From the IMG/VR virus record IMGVR_UViG_3300044712_000223, positions 1 to 22,763 of that record: a stretch of DNA of 22,763 bases. The stretch is one strand, 5' to 3'. Every line of letters begins with the position of its first letter. The first letter of the stretch is position 1. The position numbers and the translations under genes are program-made. The notes below the pieces were generated by a model, which saw nothing but the letters and a program-made list of their open reading frames with translations, searched no databases and was not told the origin of the DNA. This DNA comes from a virus. Below, one piece after another: positions 1,522-9,093 of the stretch.

Positions 1522-2214
1522 ATGCGATTTTTGTTAATCATTCTGTTATGCCTCCTGACCTCTCCGGCATGGGCGTTGACATTGGCTACACAGGCGGCGG
1601 TAGATACGTCGTACACGGCCCCGGCGGGCGGTGGTACTGCTCCGACCTATGTCAACTCAAATTCCGGCTACGACTCAGGCCCGATAACATTATCGGGAGT
1701 TACGGCAGGGAATACCTTAGTTGCGTGCGTGTCGGGAGGTGGAGCACTTACCAGCACCAGCCTGTCAGGGTGGACCGCCCTTGCTACCGCAGGGACCGCT
1801 ACAAACTTCAGCCGGTGCTATTATCTGTTGAGCGCGTCTGCTGGTAATCTGTCAATCGCTATCACATCCCCGCCATCAGACCCAGGGTGGACAGTGGCAG
1901 AATATAGCGGAGTGGGCGGGTTTGACACATCTACCGCTGGCGACACAGGGATGACCTCTCCATATACCACTCCGTCAATTACCGTGGCGCAAGACCACAG
2001 TGCAGTCATTGTGTTCGTCGCTGACGAGACAGCGAACACTGGCGCAGTCACATGGACAGGATCGGGAACTGTTGGGAGGCAATCAAACACATCACATGCT
2101 CACTATCTGGCTGATCATGTGGATACATCCGCAGGATCGTTAAGCACAACATTTACCGGCACAAACAACGCAACTCCACAGCTTGTGTATCTGATATCAC
2201 TGCAAGGTAGCTAA
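1522..2214 (+). CDS. Secreted protein of unknown function with signal peptide
   Basis: This is a 230-residue protein starting at ATG 1522 behind an AGGGGGT ribosome binding site. Residues 1-18 (MRFLLIILLCLLTSPAWA) form a textbook signal peptide: a basic residue, a leucine-rich core and an AWA cleavage site. The mature part is rich in Ser, Thr, Gly and Ala with predicted beta structure. It contains a GWTALA...YYLLSA...VAEYSGV pattern, which I associate with beta-sandwich domains in secreted or tail-associated bacterial proteins. The stop overlaps the next start by one base (TAATG), which suggests translational coupling to the beta-helix protein. Phage virion proteins normally lack signal peptides, so this may be an exported conversion protein or an appendage acquired from a bacterial gene. 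No enzyme motif was recognised. Confidence 0.7.
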   Translation: MRFLLIILLCLLTSPAWALTLATQAAVDTSYTAPAGGGTAPTYVNSNSGYDSGPITLSGVTAGNTLVACVSGGGALTSTSLSGWTALATAGTATNFSRCYYLLSASAGNLSIAITSPPSDPGWTVAEYSGVGGFDTSTAGDTGMTSPYTTPSITVAQDHSAVIVFVADETANTGAVTWTGSGTVGRQSNTSHAHYLADHVDTSAGSLSTTFTGTNNATPQLVYLISLQGS

Positions 2215-3881
2215 TGCGATACTTAATTATATTGATGATAATTATCATTCCGACTGCTTCATTTGCAGCCGATGTCTACGTTAAAATCGGCGGGACCAGA
2301 ACCAGCGGAAAATCGACGACTGGTGACTGGTCAAACGCCAACTGTTATCCTGACATAGTGACACACGGTTTCCCCGCCATGAGTGCTGGCGATACCATGA
2401 CGATTGATGATGGAACATATACTGGCACAGCGAATCATGCCAAGCAGGACACGGCTACTCCTCCAAACGGTACTAGCAAAGCAAATATGACTGTGATTAG
2501 GGCAAGGAATATTCCCTGTCAGGACGGTTACAGTTGTTCATCTGCACTCAAAGTGACTTGGGGTGAGTCAACCGATAATGGTGATTATTCTACAAGTGGC
2601 CTAGGGATGAACGGTCCTGTAAATTCAGGTGCAAAAAGCTATATCAAGTTTTATGGATTGAGAATGTACAATGCCAGTCTTTATACCGACTGGTCATATA
2701 TATATTTCAAGCAATGCGCGCTAATTGGATCTATGACCGGCAACACTATGTCATTTTCAACGGATTCTCCCTATTTACTGATGGAGGATTCCGTGGTGAT
2801 GGGGTCAGGGCGATACCAGACGATGAGCCACTTAGGAGAGGAGGGTTATCTACATAACGTATTTAGGCGTGTAGTTGCCCGTAAGGATTACTCAAATGGT
2901 AGCAATCAGGCCACTATGCCGATGGGTATTTTCACATCGTACTATACCTTGGACGATGCCTACCTGAACTGTATCGCCATAGACTCGGATCAGCCAGCAT
3001 ACTACGCGAATGAGTCAATCGAATATGGGGGAAGTTTTTTCCACGGCATGGGCGCTACCGGATTGACCATTAAAGGCAGCATATCAATCAATGTAGCAAT
3101 GAACGCCATAACGCTAGGCACTCACTCAGGAACTAATACCATTACTGATTTCTCGGCGGTGAATAATGCTGGCGGGCTGGCTGTGAGCCACGGTTCAGCA
3201 AATAGGGCTACGGTTTATAATGTCGGCACCGATCTGTTTTCAGGGTGGAAAACGGGCCAGATAGCAACATTCTCCGGTTCTGAAAATGACGCTTTTGCGA
3301 CTGTTGGTGGTGCCTTTTCGGTGACAAACAGCATTGCCCGGACTGCGCAGGGGTATGCAGGTAATGGGGATGTGGGAACTTTGACCGGAAGTTATTGGGA
3401 TTATTACGGCACTGGCGGTAATAGCAATGTAACTCCATCCGATTCGATTACGACTGATCCGCTTACTCATGGATTGCTCTACCCAGTGCGTATCGAAACC
3501 GGATCATCTCTGGCAACTGCCGGGTCAGGTGGTAGTCAAATTGGCGCAAACATCCTGAAGCGTATCGGCCATGATGGGGATTTCAACGGCGATACGGGGT
3601 GGAACACGGAAACCACAACCGACCTTTGGCCCTGGCCTTATGAGGATTGGGTGAAGGCTGAGTTGGCAGCCATGCCCTCAACGCTCGGCGGGTTATCCAT
3701 GCCCTCGCCAACAAGGGGTGTAGCGGCAGCGGGAAACGATGCATACGGACAGCCTATCACGTTGACTCGGTATATCTGGCAATCTCTCGGCAACCAGATC
3801 CCCGCTGACATTTACGGCTCAACTGCCGTTGTTTCAAAGCTTCAAGGCGGCGGGAAGCTCACCGGCGGCACTATCAGATGA
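2214..3881 (+). CDS. Exported right-handed beta-helix protein
   Basis: This is a 555-residue protein that begins at the ATG overlapping the previous stop. Residues 1-18 (MRYLIILMIIIIPTASFA) form a strong signal peptide, and the mature protein begins near ADVYVK. The N-terminal part (GDTMTIDDGTYTG, about residues 60-72) and the many short beta strands with Asn/Gly/Ser turns through residue 400 fit a parallel beta-helix of the pectate-lyase superfamily. The C-terminal region carries IGANILKRIG and a DLWPWPYEDWVKAEL segment that resembles the ends of secreted beta-helix proteins in bacterial genomes (from memory, not searched). No catalytic set can be assigned, so both polysaccharide binding and cleavage are possible. 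Base composition is visibly AT-richer than the flanking head genes, suggesting separate acquisition. The stop overlaps the next start (ATGA at 3878-3881). Confidence 0.75.
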   Translation: MRYLIILMIIIIPTASFAADVYVKIGGTRTSGKSTTGDWSNANCYPDIVTHGFPAMSAGDTMTIDDGTYTGTANHAKQDTATPPNGTSKANMTVIRARNIPCQDGYSCSSALKVTWGESTDNGDYSTSGLGMNGPVNSGAKSYIKFYGLRMYNASLYTDWSYIYFKQCALIGSMTGNTMSFSTDSPYLLMEDSVVMGSGRYQTMSHLGEEGYLHNVFRRVVARKDYSNGSNQATMPMGIFTSYYTLDDAYLNCIAIDSDQPAYYANESIEYGGSFFHGMGATGLTIKGSISINVAMNAITLGTHSGTNTITDFSAVNNAGGLAVSHGSANRATVYNVGTDLFSGWKTGQIATFSGSENDAFATVGGAFSVTNSIARTAQGYAGNGDVGTLTGSYWDYYGTGGNSNVTPSDSITTDPLTHGLLYPVRIETGSSLATAGSGGSQIGANILKRIGHDGDFNGDTGWNTETTTDLWPWPYEDWVKAELAAMPSTLGGLSMPSPTRGVAAAGNDAYGQPITLTRYIWQSLGNQIPADIYGSTAVVSKLQGGGKLTGGTIR

Positions 3882-4951
3882 CAGACATCAACAAGCAGCT
3901 CCTCGACTACTCAATCCATCACCAGGTCAATCTCGGGCGGTACTCCGGGAAGGTCGTGCGGGACATCCTCGCCCTGCTGAACGATGCCGACAAGGAGATC
4001 CTGGCGAAGATTATCGCCCGAGGGGAAGATGGGACGTTTACGGCGGCGCGGCTGAAGAAGTTGTTGTCAGAACTCCGGGAGATGACAGGCGAGACATACC
4101 GGCAGGCCCACAACGAACTGAAAACCGCCATGCTCGACTTCGGGACGGCAGAGGCGGCGGCAACGGCGGCGGTACTTACCGCCCAAGTGCCGGTCACGTT
4201 CAACATTGTGCAGCCTACCGTGGAGCAACTGGCGGCCATTGTGTCGAAAGTGCCTATCACTGTCGGGCCGGACAAGAAGCTGCTCCTCGAGGAGATTTTC
4301 GACTCCCTGGCGAAAGGGAAAGAGGAGGCAATCCGGGGTGCGATACGGCTCGGGATGGTGGAGGGGGAAACAGTTCCACAGATGGTGCGGCGGCTGCAAG
4401 GGTCCAGGGCATCCAGGTACACTGACGGCATATTCGAAAAGGATCGCAGAAATGCTGAGGCGATCGTTCGTACAGTGGTCAATCACACCAGTAATCACGC
4501 GGCTCAGTTGACCTTCGAAAAGAACAGCGCGGTCGTGTCAAAGTGGAAATTCCTTGCTACCCTCGACAGTCGCACGACGATAATCTGTGCATCACTCAGC
4601 GGCACGGAATGGCCGATAGGACAGGGACCCCTCCCCCCTCGGCACGTGCGTTGCCGATCCTTTCAAATCCCTGTGCTCAAATCCTGGCGGGAACTCGGAA
4701 TCGACATGGACGAAATGCCAGTATCCACCAGGGCATCAAAAGACGGTCCTGTCCGCGCTGACATAACCTTTGACGCATGGCTTCGGGGGCAAGACTCAGA
4801 CGTACAGAAAGATATTCTCGGAGCCACCCGCGCCAAGCTGTTCAAGGAAGGGTTAAAGATCGACCGCTTCACTGATCGCGCAGGCGTGGTGTACGACCTC
4901 AAGGAATTGGAAGCCCGCAACAAGGCGGCGTTTCGGAAAGTGTTCGGTTAA
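3878..4951 (+). CDS. Minor head protein, Mu F / SPP1 gp7 family
   Basis: This 357-residue protein has an N-terminal helical half and a C-terminal Mu F-type head-morphogenesis domain. The signature runs from W223 to about S261: a WKFLATLDSRTT start, C237, then GTEWPIGQGPLPPRHVRC with H256 and C259, which matches the conserved Pro-Pro-x-His-x-x-Cys-Arg end of the family. Members are minor capsid proteins that act with the portal in procapsid assembly, and in some phages are ejected with DNA. The portal gene is normally directly upstream; here the gene before it is an exported beta-helix protein joined by a 4-base ATGA overlap, so fibre and secreted genes seem to have been inserted between portal and minor head genes, or the order is rearranged. 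The stop is followed by a possible terminator. Confidence 0.88.
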   Translation: MTDINKQLLDYSIHHQVNLGRYSGKVVRDILALLNDADKEILAKIIARGEDGTFTAARLKKLLSELREMTGETYRQAHNELKTAMLDFGTAEAAATAAVLTAQVPVTFNIVQPTVEQLAAIVSKVPITVGPDKKLLLEEIFDSLAKGKEEAIRGAIRLGMVEGETVPQMVRRLQGSRASRYTDGIFEKDRRNAEAIVRTVVNHTSNHAAQLTFEKNSAVVSKWKFLATLDSRTTIICASLSGTEWPIGQGPLPPRHVRCRSFQIPVLKSWRELGIDMDEMPVSTRASKDGPVRADITFDAWLRGQDSDVQKDILGATRAKLFKEGLKIDRFTDRAGVVYDLKELEARNKAAFRKVFG

Positions 4952-4994
4952 TCCCTCCTCCTCTCCCCGTTTCATCCCCTACCCTCAAGGCATT

Positions 4995-5020
4995 GCCCGG
5001 CATCGCGTCCGAGCTTTTTT
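4995..5020 (+). terminator. Possible Rho-independent terminator after minor head gene
   Basis: GCCCGG (4995-5000) can pair with CCGAGC (5009-5014), with one internal mismatch and an 8-base loop, followed directly by six T (5015-5020). It points in the + direction and lies 44 bases after the minor head stop. The stem is short and imperfect, so efficiency is uncertain. It would keep late transcription from running through the antisense gene island, but would then leave the scaffold and coat genes needing readthrough or antitermination, because no convincing + promoter was seen after it. Confidence 0.4.
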
Positions 5021-5023
5021 ATT

Positions 5024-5197
5024 TCAACAACCTCGGCCGAAAGATCCGGGCTTGTATCCGAAAAGCCGCTCTACTCTCTCCATCTGATTGCTCATAACTT
5101 CACGTAATTCCTTTTCGTCATCGGCTATCCGATCGAACGCAATTTGCATAGCAAATAAAAGGTTGTCCTGAGCCAGTTGTTTGAGTGCTCTTTTCAT
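5024..5197 (-). CDS. Small helical protein of unknown function (island gene 5)
   Basis: This is a 57-residue frame starting at ATG 5197 (minus strand) behind a good AAGGGGA ribosome binding site. The protein starts MKRALKQLAQDNLLFAMQIA and continues with a charged helical stretch rich in Glu and Arg (DDEKELREVMSNQMERVERL), ending in FGYKPGSFGRGC. It looks like one or two amphipathic helices, possibly a coiled coil that dimerises. It is the last gene of the five-gene minus-strand cluster and begins only three bases after the stop of the ribbon-helix-helix-like gene. No family was recognised. The strong ribosome binding site and tight spacing are the main grounds for calling it real. Confidence 0.6.
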   Translation of the reverse strand: MKRALKQLAQDNLLFAMQIAFDRIADDEKELREVMSNQMERVERLFGYKPGSFGRGC

Positions 5198-5200
5198 TGC

Positions 5201-5380
5201 CTATTCCCCTTTCAACGCTTTCCCCCGAATATAATCCGAAGGGCAGATCCCGGCCTCTTTTGACCGGCGCAGCACCTCGGACCATTCAGTTTCGGTCCAC
5301 CGCTGCTGTTTCAGGACGGTGCGGGGCTTAAGGGTGGAGCCGGGTTTGCGCCCGGCCCCTTCACGTTTTCCGCCTCTCAT
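5201..5380 (-). CDS. Small ribbon-helix-helix-like DNA-binding protein
   Basis: This is a 59-residue protein from ATG 5380 (minus strand) with a canonical AAAGGAG site seven bases upstream. The N-terminus MRGGKREGAGRKPGS is a basic, Gly-rich tail common on small DNA-binding proteins of phages and plasmids. The rest, from RWTETEWSEVLRRSKEAG to ICPSDYIRGKAL, follows the pattern of MobC / ribbon-helix-helix proteins: a strand, a TExEW helix, then a short helix with the S-x-Y-I-R-x-x-A-L motif. Such proteins bind DNA as dimers, as repressors or relaxosome accessory factors. Here it could regulate its own cluster, where an inverted repeat lies upstream of the promoter; that link is inference. Confidence 0.65.
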   Translation of the reverse strand: MRGGKREGAGRKPGSTLKPRTVLKQQRWTETEWSEVLRRSKEAGICPSDYIRGKALKGE

Positions 5381-5382
5381 GT

Positions 5383-5580
5383 CTACTCCTTTTCGCAGAA
5401 TCTACGCCGGGTCTGAATAATTCTATCAGTGCCGTCAGTAATTTGTACGAAAACTATATCTCCCATATTAGCGTTAGATTCAATATCAATGACAACCCCG
5501 CGACAACCCTCGTAATGTTCCATTGTGCTCATTGGTTGAAACCCTCTCAGCTGTACCTTATCGCCTTTATTTATTTTCAT
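5383..5580 (-). CDS. Small KOW/SH3-like beta protein
   Basis: This 65-residue protein starts at ATG 5580 (minus strand) behind GGAGGTGG. The sequence MKINKGDKVQLRGF, then the YEGCRGVVIDI segment and later DIVFVQITDGT, has the alternation and Gly placement of a small SH3-like barrel such as a KOW motif (G-D-x-V and G-x-x-G-x-V-x-x-I). Such folds bind nucleic acid or protein partners. The start overlaps the stop of the upstream zinc-site gene by four bases (5577-5580), so translation is probably coupled. The assignment is from pattern only; an alternative is an unrelated small beta protein. Confidence 0.6.
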   Translation of the reverse strand: MKINKGDKVQLRGFQPMSTMEHYEGCRGVVIDIESNANMGDIVFVQITDGTDRIIQTRRRFCEKE

Positions 5581-5801
5581 TTAACCACCTCCGGCGTATT
5601 GTGTATCGGCAGCATTTTGCGTGTTGACGTCATAGGGTGATTGCGGAATACCAATTCACGTCCACACTTCGGGCAAATCACACCCTCTGCCATGTATTGA
5701 ATTTTTTCTTTAGGTGACACTCGCGATATTTCAATTACAGGCAAATCACCCCTTTCAAAAACATGGCCGCTGTAACTGCATCGTTTGCTGTAGTCTTTCA
5801 T
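5577..5801 (-). CDS. Small protein with CPKC zinc-knuckle-like motif
   Basis: This is a 74-residue protein. I chose ATG 5801 (minus strand) because AGGGGGC lies just upstream; an in-frame ATG ten codons earlier has no better site and would overlap the preceding gene. C43-P-K-C46-G is a typical zinc-ribbon knuckle. Other possible ligands are C8, H13, H55 and H67, so a single metal site is plausible but incomplete by classical zinc-ribbon rules, which need a second CxxC. The protein is short and basic toward its C-terminus. Small zinc-binding proteins of this kind are frequent in phage early or accessory cassettes, where they often bind DNA or host proteins. The function here is unknown. Confidence 0.6.
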   Translation of the reverse strand: MKDYSKRCSYSGHVFERGDLPVIEISRVSPKEKIQYMAEGVICPKCGRELVFRNHPMTSTRKMLPIHNTPEVVK

Positions 5802-5809
5802 AGTGCCCC

Positions 5810-6046
5810 CTAAAATCCGTTGATTGCCCAATCAAGGCACCAGTCCATAACATCAGCTTTCTTGCCATGCTTGCGGCCTGTAACATCTTGATCAGCCGTA
5901 AACCCTGCCCACTCATTATTCTGTTTTGCCATCCATGCGACAATGTCGCCGGAAGCGGTAATAAAGCGAGTGTAAATGCCGTCGTTTCGTACCGTGACAC
6001 CATGCTCAAGCGCATCTGCTTTCAGACTTTTCAAGGTGCGTTTCAT
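5810..6046 (-). CDS. Small protein of unknown function (island gene 1)
   Basis: This is a 78-residue protein, first gene of the minus-strand cluster. The start at ATG 6046 is supported by AAAGGGGGA five to six bases upstream; the frame stays open further 5', but that part would run through the promoter and is not coding. The protein begins MKRTLKSLKADALEHGVTV, continues with a likely beta hairpin (DGIYTRFITASGDIVAWMA) and ends in a Trp-rich helix (DVMDWCLDWAINGF). It looks like a compact alpha/beta domain. No family was recognised. It is translated from a short leader behind a strong sigma-70 promoter, so it may be expressed independently of the late phage genes. Confidence 0.65.
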   Translation of the reverse strand: MKRTLKSLKADALEHGVTVRNDGIYTRFITASGDIVAWMAKQNNEWAGFTADQDVTGRKHGKKADVMDWCLDWAINGF

Positions 6047-6083
6047 GACATCCCCCTTTCTCAATTTCCCATCTTTTGACTCT

Positions 6084-6111
6084 ATTATACCACCGAATTG
6101 AATCTTGTCAA
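6084..6111 (-). promoter_or_regulatory. Near-consensus sigma-70 promoter of the antisense gene island
   Basis: On the minus strand a perfect -35 box TTGACA (6106-6111) is separated by 16 bases from a perfect -10 box TATAAT (6084-6089). The predicted start is near 6077, which gives a leader of about 30 bases before ATG 6046. DNA upstream of the -35 box is very AT-rich and could act as an UP element. Such a full-consensus promoter suggests constitutive, host-polymerase-driven expression, unlike the flanking late genes. It is typical of morons expressed from a prophage. Confidence 0.85.
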
Positions 6112-6115
6112 TACA

Positions 6116-6138
6116 AAATATCAATAAAAATGATATTT
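6116..6138. promoter_or_regulatory. Perfect 8-bp inverted repeat upstream of the island promoter
   Basis: AAATATCA (6116-6123) and TGATATTT (6131-6138) form a perfect inverted repeat with a 7-base AT spacer, centred about 50 bases upstream of the predicted minus-strand start. The dyad fits a dimeric regulator site, either an operator or an activator site behind the -35 box. A weak AT-only hairpin is the alternative; it is too unstable to be a terminator. The ribbon-helix-helix-like protein of the same cluster is one candidate ligand, by inference only. Confidence 0.5.
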
Positions 6139-6259
6139 CTGAAAAATAATTTCCCTCTCCCAGTTTGTGCAACAGACGCATGGAATTTTTCTCACTCCTC
6201 CCTATATTGTGCGCTCAATACCAGATCCGGCCAGCAGGCCAAAAGGAAAGCGAGACGCT

Positions 6260-7015
6260 ATGAAACTAAAGCTCAATGCAGACGGAAGCGCAGCGGTACA
6301 GGACGGAAAGCCGGTCTATGTGGACGACGCAGGGCAGGAAATCCCTTACGACGTTCCGGCCATGATGACCAAAATCACGGAACTGAACAGCGAGGCGAAA
6401 ACACACCGCCTGGCGGCCAAAGAAGCTAAGGAAAAGCTGGCAGCATTTGAAGGCATCGAGGATCCGGCGGCGGCAATCAAGGCGCTGCAATTCGCGCAGT
6501 CCATGGAAGGTAAGAAGGCCATGGATGACGAGGCAATCCAGAAGCTGATTCAGAACGCCGTCAAGCCGCTACAAGAGAAAGCGACAGCCCTTGAAACGGC
6601 CCTGGCAGAAAAGGACGGTCACATTTACAAGCTGGAAGTGAGTAACCGCTTTCAGTCGTCACCGTTCATCAAAGAGAAGTCAATCATCCCTCCCGACATG
6701 CTGGAAGCGACGTTCGGGAAGAATTTCAAGATAGAAGGCGGCAAAACCATCGCATACGACGCAAGCGGTAATCAGATATTTTCCAAAGTTAGGCCGGGCG
6801 AACCGGCACAGTTTGACGAGGCAATGCAGGTACTTTTTGACAGCCATCCGATGAAGGATTCGCTTTACAAGGCCAGCGGCTCAAGCGGAAGCGGAAGCCA
6901 GCAGAACAATGGAACCGGCAACACACAAAAGACAATGACCCGCACAGCATTTGACGCAGCATCTCAGGTTGAGAGATCGGAGTTTTCAAAGGCTGGCGGC
7001 AAGGTCGTTGATTAA
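6260..7015 (+). CDS. Phage capsid scaffolding-like protein
   Basis: This 251-residue protein starts at ATG 6260 (MKLKLNADGSAAVQDGKPVY). An in-frame ATG at 6167 would add 31 residues that look unlike the family, so the later start is preferred, though its AAAGGAAAGCGAG ribosome site is not ideal. The N-terminus is a small beta unit, followed by a long charged helical or coiled-coil stretch (EAKTHRLAAKEAKEKLAAFE, then IEDPAAAIKALQFAQ), then a C-terminal domain and a Ser/Gly/Asn-rich linker. This arrangement, directly before the coat gene, is that of the scaffold-like proteins annotated in many phages (DUF6651-like, from memory). Scaffolds guide coat assembly into procapsids and then leave. Whether it has a protease is not indicated; no catalytic motif is seen. 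Confidence 0.75.
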   Translation: MKLKLNADGSAAVQDGKPVYVDDAGQEIPYDVPAMMTKITELNSEAKTHRLAAKEAKEKLAAFEGIEDPAAAIKALQFAQSMEGKKAMDDEAIQKLIQNAVKPLQEKATALETALAEKDGHIYKLEVSNRFQSSPFIKEKSIIPPDMLEATFGKNFKIEGGKTIAYDASGNQIFSKVRPGEPAQFDEAMQVLFDSHPMKDSLYKASGSSGSGSQQNNGTGNTQKTMTRTAFDAASQVERSEFSKAGGKVVD

Positions 7016-7036: not shown

Positions 7037-8206
7037 ATGGCAAACACACTGACCGACCTCGCAGCAGATATTTACAAAGCAGCCGACAAGGTAGGCCGGG
7101 AACTGATCGGCCTGATTCCTTCCGTAACCATCAACAGTGACGCTTCCCTCCGGTGTGCAAAGGGCGATTATGTTCGCTCCCACTTCACCCGCACCCCGAC
7201 TCTGAACGAAACCGATACCCCCGCGATGACCATCCCGGAAGGCACGGATCAGACGGTGGACAGCAAGACTCTCCGCGTCAACCGCTATGCCAGCGTACAG
7301 ATTCCCTGGACCGGCGAGGATCAGAAGCATGTTGACAACGGCAGCGGTTTCCAGACCATCTACGGTGACCAGATTCAACAGGCTATGCGGGTAATTGCCA
7401 ACGCCATTGAATCCTACCTATGGGGCATCATCTACAAGAGCGCCTCCCGCGCATACGGCACCGCCGGTACGACCCCCTTTGCTTCCGATTTCAACGAGAT
7501 CGCCAACGTCCGGCAGATCCTCGTTGACAACGGATGCCCCGCGAATGACGGCCTGCTCTCTCTGGTAATCAACAGTACCGCAGGTACGAAGCTCCGCAAC
7601 CTGGCGCAGCTTCAGAAGGTCAACGAGGCGGGCGGTTCTTCCCTGCTTCGCCAAGGAACACTGCTCGACCTTCAGGGCTTTATGTTGAAGGAAAGCGCAG
7701 GCATCGGCGTACATACCAAGGGCGCGGGCACCGGGTATGACGTTGACCTTGGCGCAGGGTATGTGCTCCGCGATACCACCATCCATCTGGACGGCGGCAC
7801 GGTCAACGTAACCGGCATCAAGGCGGGCGACGTGGTGACCTTCGCGGGCGACGCCAACAAGTATGTCGTCAACACCGGAACCACCGAAGTCGAAGCCGAC
7901 ATCATCCTGAACGGCCCCGGCATCTTCAAGGCGACCCTCGCCGATGCGGTTGAAATGACCATAGGCGACAGCTACACCGGCAACGTGGCGCTCCATAAGA
8001 GCGCCGTCGAACTCGTTGTTCGTCCTCCGGCACTGCCCAAGGGCGGGGATGCAGCGGTCGATACGATGACTATTCAGGACCCCTGGTCAGGCCTCGTCTT
8101 CGAAATCGCCGTATACAAGGGCTACCGCAAGACCATGATGGAAGTCCGTTGTGTATACGACGCGGTGTGCTGGAAATCGGATCACGTCGCAACCCTCTTG
8201 GGATAA
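7037..8206 (+). CDS. Major capsid protein, P22 coat (gp5) family
   Basis: This 389-residue protein starts at ATG 7037 behind AAGGAG. The N-terminus (MANTLTDLAADIYKAADKVG, then IPSVTINSDA) and the later segments IPEGTDQTV, DNGCPANDGLLSLVINSTAG and TLLDLQGFMLKESAG follow the P22 coat family. So does the small domain with VTGIKAGDVVTFAGDANKYVV, which matches the GDV(F/V)T(I/F)AG hallmark. The C-terminal part has DPWSGLVFEIAVYKGYRKTMMEVRC, also typical. The family has the HK97 fold and assembles an icosahedral shell with a separate scaffold. Its position after the scaffold-like gene, and the hairpin terminator right after the stop, fit a highly expressed coat gene. Confidence 0.9.
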   Translation: MANTLTDLAADIYKAADKVGRELIGLIPSVTINSDASLRCAKGDYVRSHFTRTPTLNETDTPAMTIPEGTDQTVDSKTLRVNRYASVQIPWTGEDQKHVDNGSGFQTIYGDQIQQAMRVIANAIESYLWGIIYKSASRAYGTAGTTPFASDFNEIANVRQILVDNGCPANDGLLSLVINSTAGTKLRNLAQLQKVNEAGGSSLLRQGTLLDLQGFMLKESAGIGVHTKGAGTGYDVDLGAGYVLRDTTIHLDGGTVNVTGIKAGDVVTFAGDANKYVVNTGTTEVEADIILNGPGIFKATLADAVEMTIGDSYTGNVALHKSAVELVVRPPALPKGGDAAVDTMTIQDPWSGLVFEIAVYKGYRKTMMEVRCVYDAVCWKSDHVATLLG

Positions 8207-8213
8207 CCAACGC

Positions 8214-8240
8214 GGGGCGGGGAAACTCGCCCCTCCTTTT
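8214..8240 (+). terminator. Hairpin terminator or attenuator after the coat gene
   Basis: GGGGCGGG (8214-8221) pairs with CTCGCCCC (8226-8233), an eight-pair stem with one G-T wobble closed by a GAAA tetraloop. It is followed by TCCTTTT (8234-8240). It lies eight bases after the coat stop and before the ribosome site of the next gene. The T tract is interrupted, so partial termination is likely; it could lower downstream expression relative to the coat protein or protect the 3' end of the coat message. Confidence 0.7.
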
Positions 8241-8251
8241 AGGGGGCAACG

Positions 8252-8959
8252 ATGATTTACAGACTACCGGCAGGACATATCATCACCGCCGAAGTTGCGG
8301 ACGGCTTCGGCAGCATCAAACAGGTTGAAGACGCCACCGTCGGCGCAACCTTCGCATCTTCCAAGACCTTCGGGCCTTATTTTATTGAGCGCAGTTTCAA
8401 CGTAAGCGCAAACGCTACCGTTACCATCTCGCCCGTTACCACAAGCCCGTTGTCCATGCTTGATGGTGGTGACGGCGCGCCTGTAGCGGCTGCAAAAGCC
8501 ACCGTCAATGTCAACCCGGCTGGAGATGAAAACGGCCTGACCTTCACGGCCAAGGAATACGGCTCGGACGGCAACCTCATTTCCGTTACCTACATTGACC
8601 CCGCCGGGAACAACAAGGCGCTTGCCGTGTCAGTGGTAGGCTCCGCAATCACCGTATCGCTCAAGACCGGGGCAGCTGGCGCAATCGAATCTACCGCAGC
8701 GCAGGTAATGGCCGCCGTCAATGCCGCAGCGTCAAAGCTCGTCGTTGCTTCCATCTATGCCGCTGATACTGGCGACGTTGACGACGGCTCGGGTGTGGTC
8801 ACCGCAATGGCAAAAGCATCCCTCACCGGCGGGGCAGGTACGAATATCGGCGTATCCCTCCCCGGCGCTCTCTACATCGACACCACCAACGGTAATGTGT
8901 ACCGCAATTCCGGGTCACTTGCGGCACCTGTATGGACTCAGCTCGGTGACGTATCATGA
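8252..8959 (+). CDS. Probable capsid decoration or head-fibre protein
   Basis: This 235-residue protein starts at ATG 8252 behind AGGGGGC. Residues 1-70 form a compact beta region (MIYRLPAGHIITAEVADGF and VTISPVTTSP). Residues about 85-190 are an Ig-like or beta-sandwich module (GLTFTAKEYGSDGNLISVTY, KALAVSVVGSAITVSLKTG, STAAQVMAAVNA) that recurs on phage surface proteins. The C-terminus has PGALYIDTTNGNVYRNSG and VWTQLG, a motif familiar from fibre proteins. Position directly after the coat gene is where decoration and head-fibre genes usually sit. It would bind the outside of the capsid and perhaps stick weakly to sugars. This is inferred from order and domain style, not from a recognised family. 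Confidence 0.6.
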   Translation: MIYRLPAGHIITAEVADGFGSIKQVEDATVGATFASSKTFGPYFIERSFNVSANATVTISPVTTSPLSMLDGGDGAPVAAAKATVNVNPAGDENGLTFTAKEYGSDGNLISVTYIDPAGNNKALAVSVVGSAITVSLKTGAAGAIESTAAQVMAAVNAAASKLVVASIYAADTGDVDDGSGVVTAMAKASLTGGAGTNIGVSLPGALYIDTTNGNVYRNSGSLAAPVWTQLGDVS

Positions 8960-9093
8960 TCGAGACCGTGAAGGTAAAGAGGGACGGCAAGAAGGGATTT
9001 CACGTCATCAACAAGACGGATTTTGTTGAAGGCGTCCATGAACTGTATGAAGCCAAGCCCGCCGCGCCTGCACCGAAGAAGGGGCGTAAGTAA
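8956..9093 (+). CDS. Small basic head-region protein, unknown function
   Basis: This 45-residue protein starts at ATG 8956, which overlaps the previous stop by four bases (ATGA), and its TAA overlaps the next ATG by one base. The sequence begins MIETVKVKRDGKKGFHVINK and ends in a Pro/Ala/Lys tail (APAPKKGRK). The first 30 residues look like a small beta-plus-helix unit, comparable to tiny FluMu-like proteins found between coat and neck genes in many phages. Tight coupling on both sides supports it being a real gene. The function is unknown; an accessory role in head completion is possible. Confidence 0.65.
   Translation: MIETVKVKRDGKKGFHVINKTDFVEGVHELYEAKPAAPAPKKGRK

Follow-up and report, generated by a model that had tools for sequence, protein, structure and literature searches.

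A probably acquired antisense gene cassette at a variable site in the head module of a metagenomic phage

Organization of the Locus

The window analyzed here is a metagenomic virus record of 22,763 nt (22.8 kb). According to Pfam and PHROG profiles, it encodes tail-fibre-like and secreted proteins, a minor head (head morphogenesis) protein (3878-4951, plus strand; Pfam Phage_Mu_F, PHROG 241), a scaffold protein (6260-7015, plus strand; PHROG 784/206), a P22-like coat protein (7037-8206) and a tail module. The phage is of the siphovirus type and has a temperate close relative.

The coding strand switches between the minor head gene and the scaffold gene, where five minus-strand ORFs, named here g1 to g5, occupy positions 5024-6046 as one tight operon. 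In the direction of reading, these are g1 (5810-6046, 78 aa), g2 (5577-5801, 74 aa), g3 (5383-5580, 65 aa), g4 (5201-5380, 59 aa) and g5 (5024-5197, 57 aa), all on the minus strand. They are spaced by +8, -4, +2 and +3 nt, the overlap between g2 and g3 being of the ATGA type. The original prediction had described four of the five as packed; the packing was borne out, but it extends to all five. All five ORFs begin with ATG preceded by a purine-rich Shine-Dalgarno-like stretch (a strong one in g3), as had been expected. A chain of five ORFs of at least 50 aa with ribosome sites was obtained in 0 of 3000 Markov-1 shuffles of the region, where the maximum was two, and the longest such chain on the antisense strand elsewhere in the window is at most one, which agrees with the prediction of five short minus-strand genes inside the head module. 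Both GC and AT skew flip sign across the block. GC3 is 0.40-0.49 in four of the five cassette genes (0.66 in g4), compared with 0.63-0.72 in the head genes, and the lower values agree with a probable recent acquisition.

Promoter and Flanking Elements

The predicted promoter of the cassette was found at 6084-6111 (minus strand). It is a perfect 12/12 sigma-70 sequence match, TTGACA-16-TATAAT with TG before the -10 element, and no other site on the two strands of the window reaches 11/12; a 12/12 match arose in 7 of 20,000 shuffles of the cassette region. An AT-rich upstream element with a 23-bp palindrome, AAATATCATTTTTATTGATATTT (6116-6138), lies 5' of the -35 element. The palindrome was rejected as an operator, since shuffles give one in 36 of 1000 cases, which is not beyond chance.

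The left junction carries a terminator-like hairpin of the late operon (4995-5021, plus strand), with a U-tract on the plus-strand side, which is found in filled and empty sites alike. Its plus-strand stem is perfect in two relatives described below, L002 and L003 (-12.3 kcal/mol), and is broken by a single mismatch in the window (-5.4), where the minus-strand RNA retains the stem via a G-U pair. No intrinsic minus-strand terminator was found for the cassette near 5024 or before the minor head gene, so transcripts of the cassette may run on into the minor head gene.

Predicted Cassette Proteins

Neither Pfam nor NCBIfam gave a match above the curated cut-off for g1-g5, and PHROGs and PADLOC gave nothing convincing. 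In the same four collections, no convincing match to known anti-defence, defence or takeover families was obtained for any of the five. Acr and Aca families were not matched by g1-g5 in Pfam, PHROGs or NCBIfam, nor in the PDB by g1, g3 and g4. Searches of cultured phages gave no match at E <= 1 for g1, g2, g3 and g5, and one weak partial match for g4; searches of viral contigs gave no match for g2, g3 and g5. For g3 and g5, no homologue was found in cultured phages or viral contigs.

The first protein, g1, is predicted to have an alpha/beta fold (pLDDT 86) and has no known family. A fold search with its model against the PDB and viral models gave no match below E 0.001. The viral-model match to an anti-restriction nuclease of Pectobacterium phage PM2 (E 0.043) is not taken as a basis for a claim of anti-restriction activity, because g1 is not acidic (pI 7.9). 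We also rejected a longer, 123-aa reading of g1 starting at 6181, since the promoter would then fall inside the ORF and a homologue in another phage contig, L006, uses the shorter ATG start. In comparison with that homologue, which is 60% identical, the dN/dS of g1 is 0.27, indicating purifying selection. In sequenced bacteria, g1 was found neither in the genome contigs nor in 399 genomes of one phylum.

As predicted, g2 contains a CPKC motif; it forms a single CPKCG knuckle, for which zinc-ribbon profile matches are weak. The basic protein g4 (pI 10.4) starts with GGKREGAGRKP. Its earlier description as ribbon-helix-helix-like is weakly supported: a NikA-like Pfam profile is matched (E 9.5e-5), but at 22.9 bits, under the curated cut-off of 27, and the match to NikA in the PDB has an E-value of 0.034, so that the assignment is suggestive only. 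For the label of g3 as KOW-like, no support came from profiles in Pfam, PHROGs, NCBIfam or the PDB, and the single-sequence structure model of this protein is uninformative (pLDDT 44). Three genes of contig L054, considered as counterparts of g3, g4 and g2, were discarded because the alignment scores of g3 and g2 were at noise level.

The Insertion Site in Related Phages

The close relative L002, a 49-kb contig whose scaffold and minor head proteins are 89 and 91% identical to those of the window, has an empty site. The equivalent of 4993-5024 there joins directly to that of 6164 onward, continuing through the scaffold start. The cassette therefore corresponds to a 1.14-kb insertion on the minus strand at about 5025-6163 (limits +/- 2 nt), with a two-T overlap at the junction and the stop codon of g5 lying on its left limit. 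Comparison of the junctions revealed neither target duplication nor end repeats, and a transposon origin was accordingly rejected. L002 also encodes two integrases and a CI-like repressor. The integrases are tyrosine recombinases (L057:1218-2315 and L059:3110-4216), and similar structural genes lie near both; this contig is possibly composed of two phages, either joined in assembly or in tandem.

In L003, which shares its metagenome of origin with L002 and whose scaffold and minor head proteins are 79 and 73% identical to those of the window, an unrelated antisense cassette (7895-8943, minus strand) lies next to the same left junction. It encodes a DUF5710-type protein, a 155-aa protein with a CPKCG motif and, as the last gene, an Xre-type HTH protein; a plus-strand HNH endonuclease gene lies ahead of the junction. 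The promoter of this cassette, TTGACA-16-TAAAAT (near 8985-9018), is the sole match of at least 11/12 in the L003 contig, and its core is spanned by a 19-bp palindrome, TTTTACCCATTGGGTAAAA, of a kind that shuffles give in 32 of 1000 cases. The sequence AATTGCATTTTT, related to the window palindrome, sits 5' of both the L003 promoter and that of the cassette counterpart in L006.

More distant relatives, L010 and L011 (scaffold 49% identical), carry an antisense gene for a 65-aa RMF/CrpP-like protein immediately 5' of the scaffold gene (L011:5416-5613, minus strand), with a hairpin terminator of its own. In the remaining relatives, the gap, 82 bp to about 1.8 kb in size, mostly holds nothing or small plus-strand genes, and cultured relatives in which the scaffold region is annotated have plus-strand genes only. 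These differing contents indicate that the minor head-scaffold junction is a variable site, at which antisense cassettes form a minority.

A Counterpart in the Early Operon of an Unrelated Phage

The L006 contig belongs to an unrelated phage whose portal and terminase families differ from those of the window. It nevertheless carries, in the same order, homologues of g1 (60% identical) and g2 (30% identical, adjoining g1 and with CPxCG kept) and a third gene related to g4. Together they open an early operon that leads to Erf and exonuclease genes and is divergent from the terminase. The noncoding promoter and leader are homologous as well (71% over 85 nt, E 7e-8). The possibility, raised in the original prediction, that the genes have neither homologues nor a conserved order in other phages does not hold, because g1, g2 and g4 keep their order in L006 and follow a homologous promoter there.

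The search of the L006 contig gave neither an integrase nor a resolvase; this contig may be incomplete, so the missing integrase is weak evidence. Taken together with the place of the block in the early operon, it favours a role early in infection, such as anti-defence or takeover of the host, rather than a role in lysogeny alone. The L006 context thus points to a putative early-infection role at least as much as to a role in the lysogen.

Comparison With Known Accessory Loci

Morons are inserted between genes that are adjacent in relatives, have their own promoter and terminator and an unlike composition, and some are expressed from a repressed prophage (PMC4378225). The cassette shares with them the insertion (seen from the empty site of L002), the promoter (a 12/12 sequence match) and the composition (GC3). 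To judge from these features, it is a moron-type accessory locus at a variable site, a kind of locus that is already known. The predicted layout of a moron cassette draws good support from the empty site, the different cassette in L003, the foreign composition and the promoter, while the suggestion of an undescribed accessory system stands for the proteins but not for the kind of locus. New here are the protein set and its promoter-bearing link to the early operon of another phage.

Several described loci resemble the cassette in part. The tab/atab locus of Pseudomonas phage JBD26 is a small minus-strand moron with its own promoter, located within the late operon between two conserved genes (PMC10884400), and is thus similar in layout. 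However, tab lies between terminase genes and consists of one gene with a plus-strand antidote, whereas the cassette comprises five genes without a partner on the plus strand and has a counterpart in the early operon of another phage. Locus STMMW_20121 of prophage ST64B and similar loci also have their own promoter and are antisense to prophage lytic genes (PMC7067206); unlike the cassette, STMMW_20121 is a single, transcript-supported gene in another phage and at another site.

The acr accessory block RGP G of Pseudomonas Mu-like phages consists of swappable, low-GC short genes (PMC4378225), and the combination of a strong near-consensus early promoter with an autoregulator in the same operon is established for acr-aca loci (PMC9410906). 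The cassette is similarly exchangeable and low in GC, with short genes, a strong promoter and a putative DNA-binding protein in the operon. It differs from the acr-aca pattern in that no Acr or Aca match was obtained, g4 is RHH-like instead of HTH, and the inverted repeat lies 5' of the -35 element, not in the core promoter. The L003 cassette, with its terminal HTH gene and a palindrome across the core promoter, is nearer to this pattern. The short, tightly packed, dispensable-looking ORFs also recall the lambdoid nin region (discussed in PMC4378225), but nin lies in a sense operon, whereas the cassette, promoter included, is antisense in the head module.

Possible Function of the Cassette

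Based on these results, the cassette is very probably an acquired antisense accessory operon. For its mode of action, we put forward an early, host-directed mechanism, to which we give close to an even chance. A horizontally acquired moron-type operon would occupy the variable site that separates the minor head gene from the scaffold gene. Its consensus promoter would need host RNA polymerase only, so the operon would be expected to be on at entry, and in the prophage too unless repressed; transcription of the cassette would be independent of late control. The small proteins would act on the host, most likely by blocking defence or taking over host processes, and the basic, NikA/RHH-like g4 may damp the cassette promoter. 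The plus-strand terminator at the left junction is weakened by one mismatch, so late read-through could run antisense across the cassette and may silence it during head assembly. This mechanism draws support from the empty site, the other antisense cassettes found there, the unique promoter, the L006 block, the selection on g1 and the low GC3, as well as from the failure to find an integrase or resolvase in L006 and from the acr-aca precedent of a strong early promoter with an autoregulator. Against it stand the lack of a match to anti-defence families and of a confident fold match for g1, the lack of homologues found for g3 and g5, the score of g4 below the cut-off, the failure to find an intrinsic minus-strand terminator and the possible incompleteness of the L006 contig.

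A somewhat unlikely alternative is that the operon serves lysogenic conversion or superinfection exclusion, being on in the prophage while the late genes are silent and protecting the lysogen, as with Tab of JBD26. Its layout is that of tab (minus strand, own promoter, within the late operon; PMC10884400), an orientation antisense to lytic genes is described as a characteristic trait of accessory loci in prophages (PMC7067206), and the integrases and CI-like repressor of L002 fit such a role. Yet g1, g2 and g4 lead an early operon in L006, where no integrase was found, a plus-strand antidote gene is absent from the site, and exclusion proteins were not matched.

It is quite improbable that the block is a neutral passenger, that is, early genes brought in by chance recombination, transient and awaiting loss. 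The variable contents of the site among relatives and the failure to find homologues of g3 and g5 would be expected of such a passenger, but the promoter and all five ORFs are intact, and L003 has a second, independent cassette at this position, likewise headed by a strong promoter.

An action of the transcript itself, with antisense RNA running into the minor head gene and limiting head expression or excluding related phages, seems very improbable. The failure to find a minus-strand terminator before the minor head gene would permit it, and an antisense exclusion RNA is known from prophage BTP1 (PMC7067206). However, the five packed ORFs with ribosome sites and the purifying selection on g1 show that selection acts on the proteins, and the L006 block is not antisense to head genes. 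Finally, an assembly chimera of two phages is hardly credible. The metagenomic source of the window and the occurrence of related genes in another phage, L006, would allow for one, but on either side of the block the sequence continues with the head module seen in L002. A chimera would therefore need two false joins 1.1 kb apart, at the very site that is independently filled in L003.

In an extension of the early, host-directed mechanism, the minor head-scaffold junction would be a docking site: early anti-defence blocks, each headed by a promoter and common to the early operons of unrelated phages, would be exchanged there as units and placed in antisense. Both g1-g5 and the L003 set, with its HTH gene and operator-like palindrome, would then be new families of autoregulated anti-defence proteins. 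We consider this broader proposal unlikely.

The locus marks a site of small accessory-operon exchange in a metagenomic phage lineage and, through guilt by location, gives access to anti-defence or exclusion genes that escape naming by sequence searches. The match to L006, in which an antisense cassette and its promoter are common to the start of an unrelated phage's early operon, suggests a source of some antisense morons as well as their time of action.

Variation in the Neighboring Structural Genes

Some variation was also observed among the structural genes around the site. In the window, two plus-strand proteins with signal-peptide-like N-termini (1522-3881) are encoded immediately 5' of the minor head gene, whereas in L003 this position is taken by the portal gene. 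The minor head protein of L002 has a C-terminal extension of about 160 aa (L002:7072-7554) with a HELGH metalloprotease-like motif, which is not present in the window protein. In L003, the gene after the scaffold (L003:9904-10830) has no match to the window coat gene despite the close scaffold (79%) and minor head (73%) proteins, an apparent swap of the coat gene beside a conserved scaffold.
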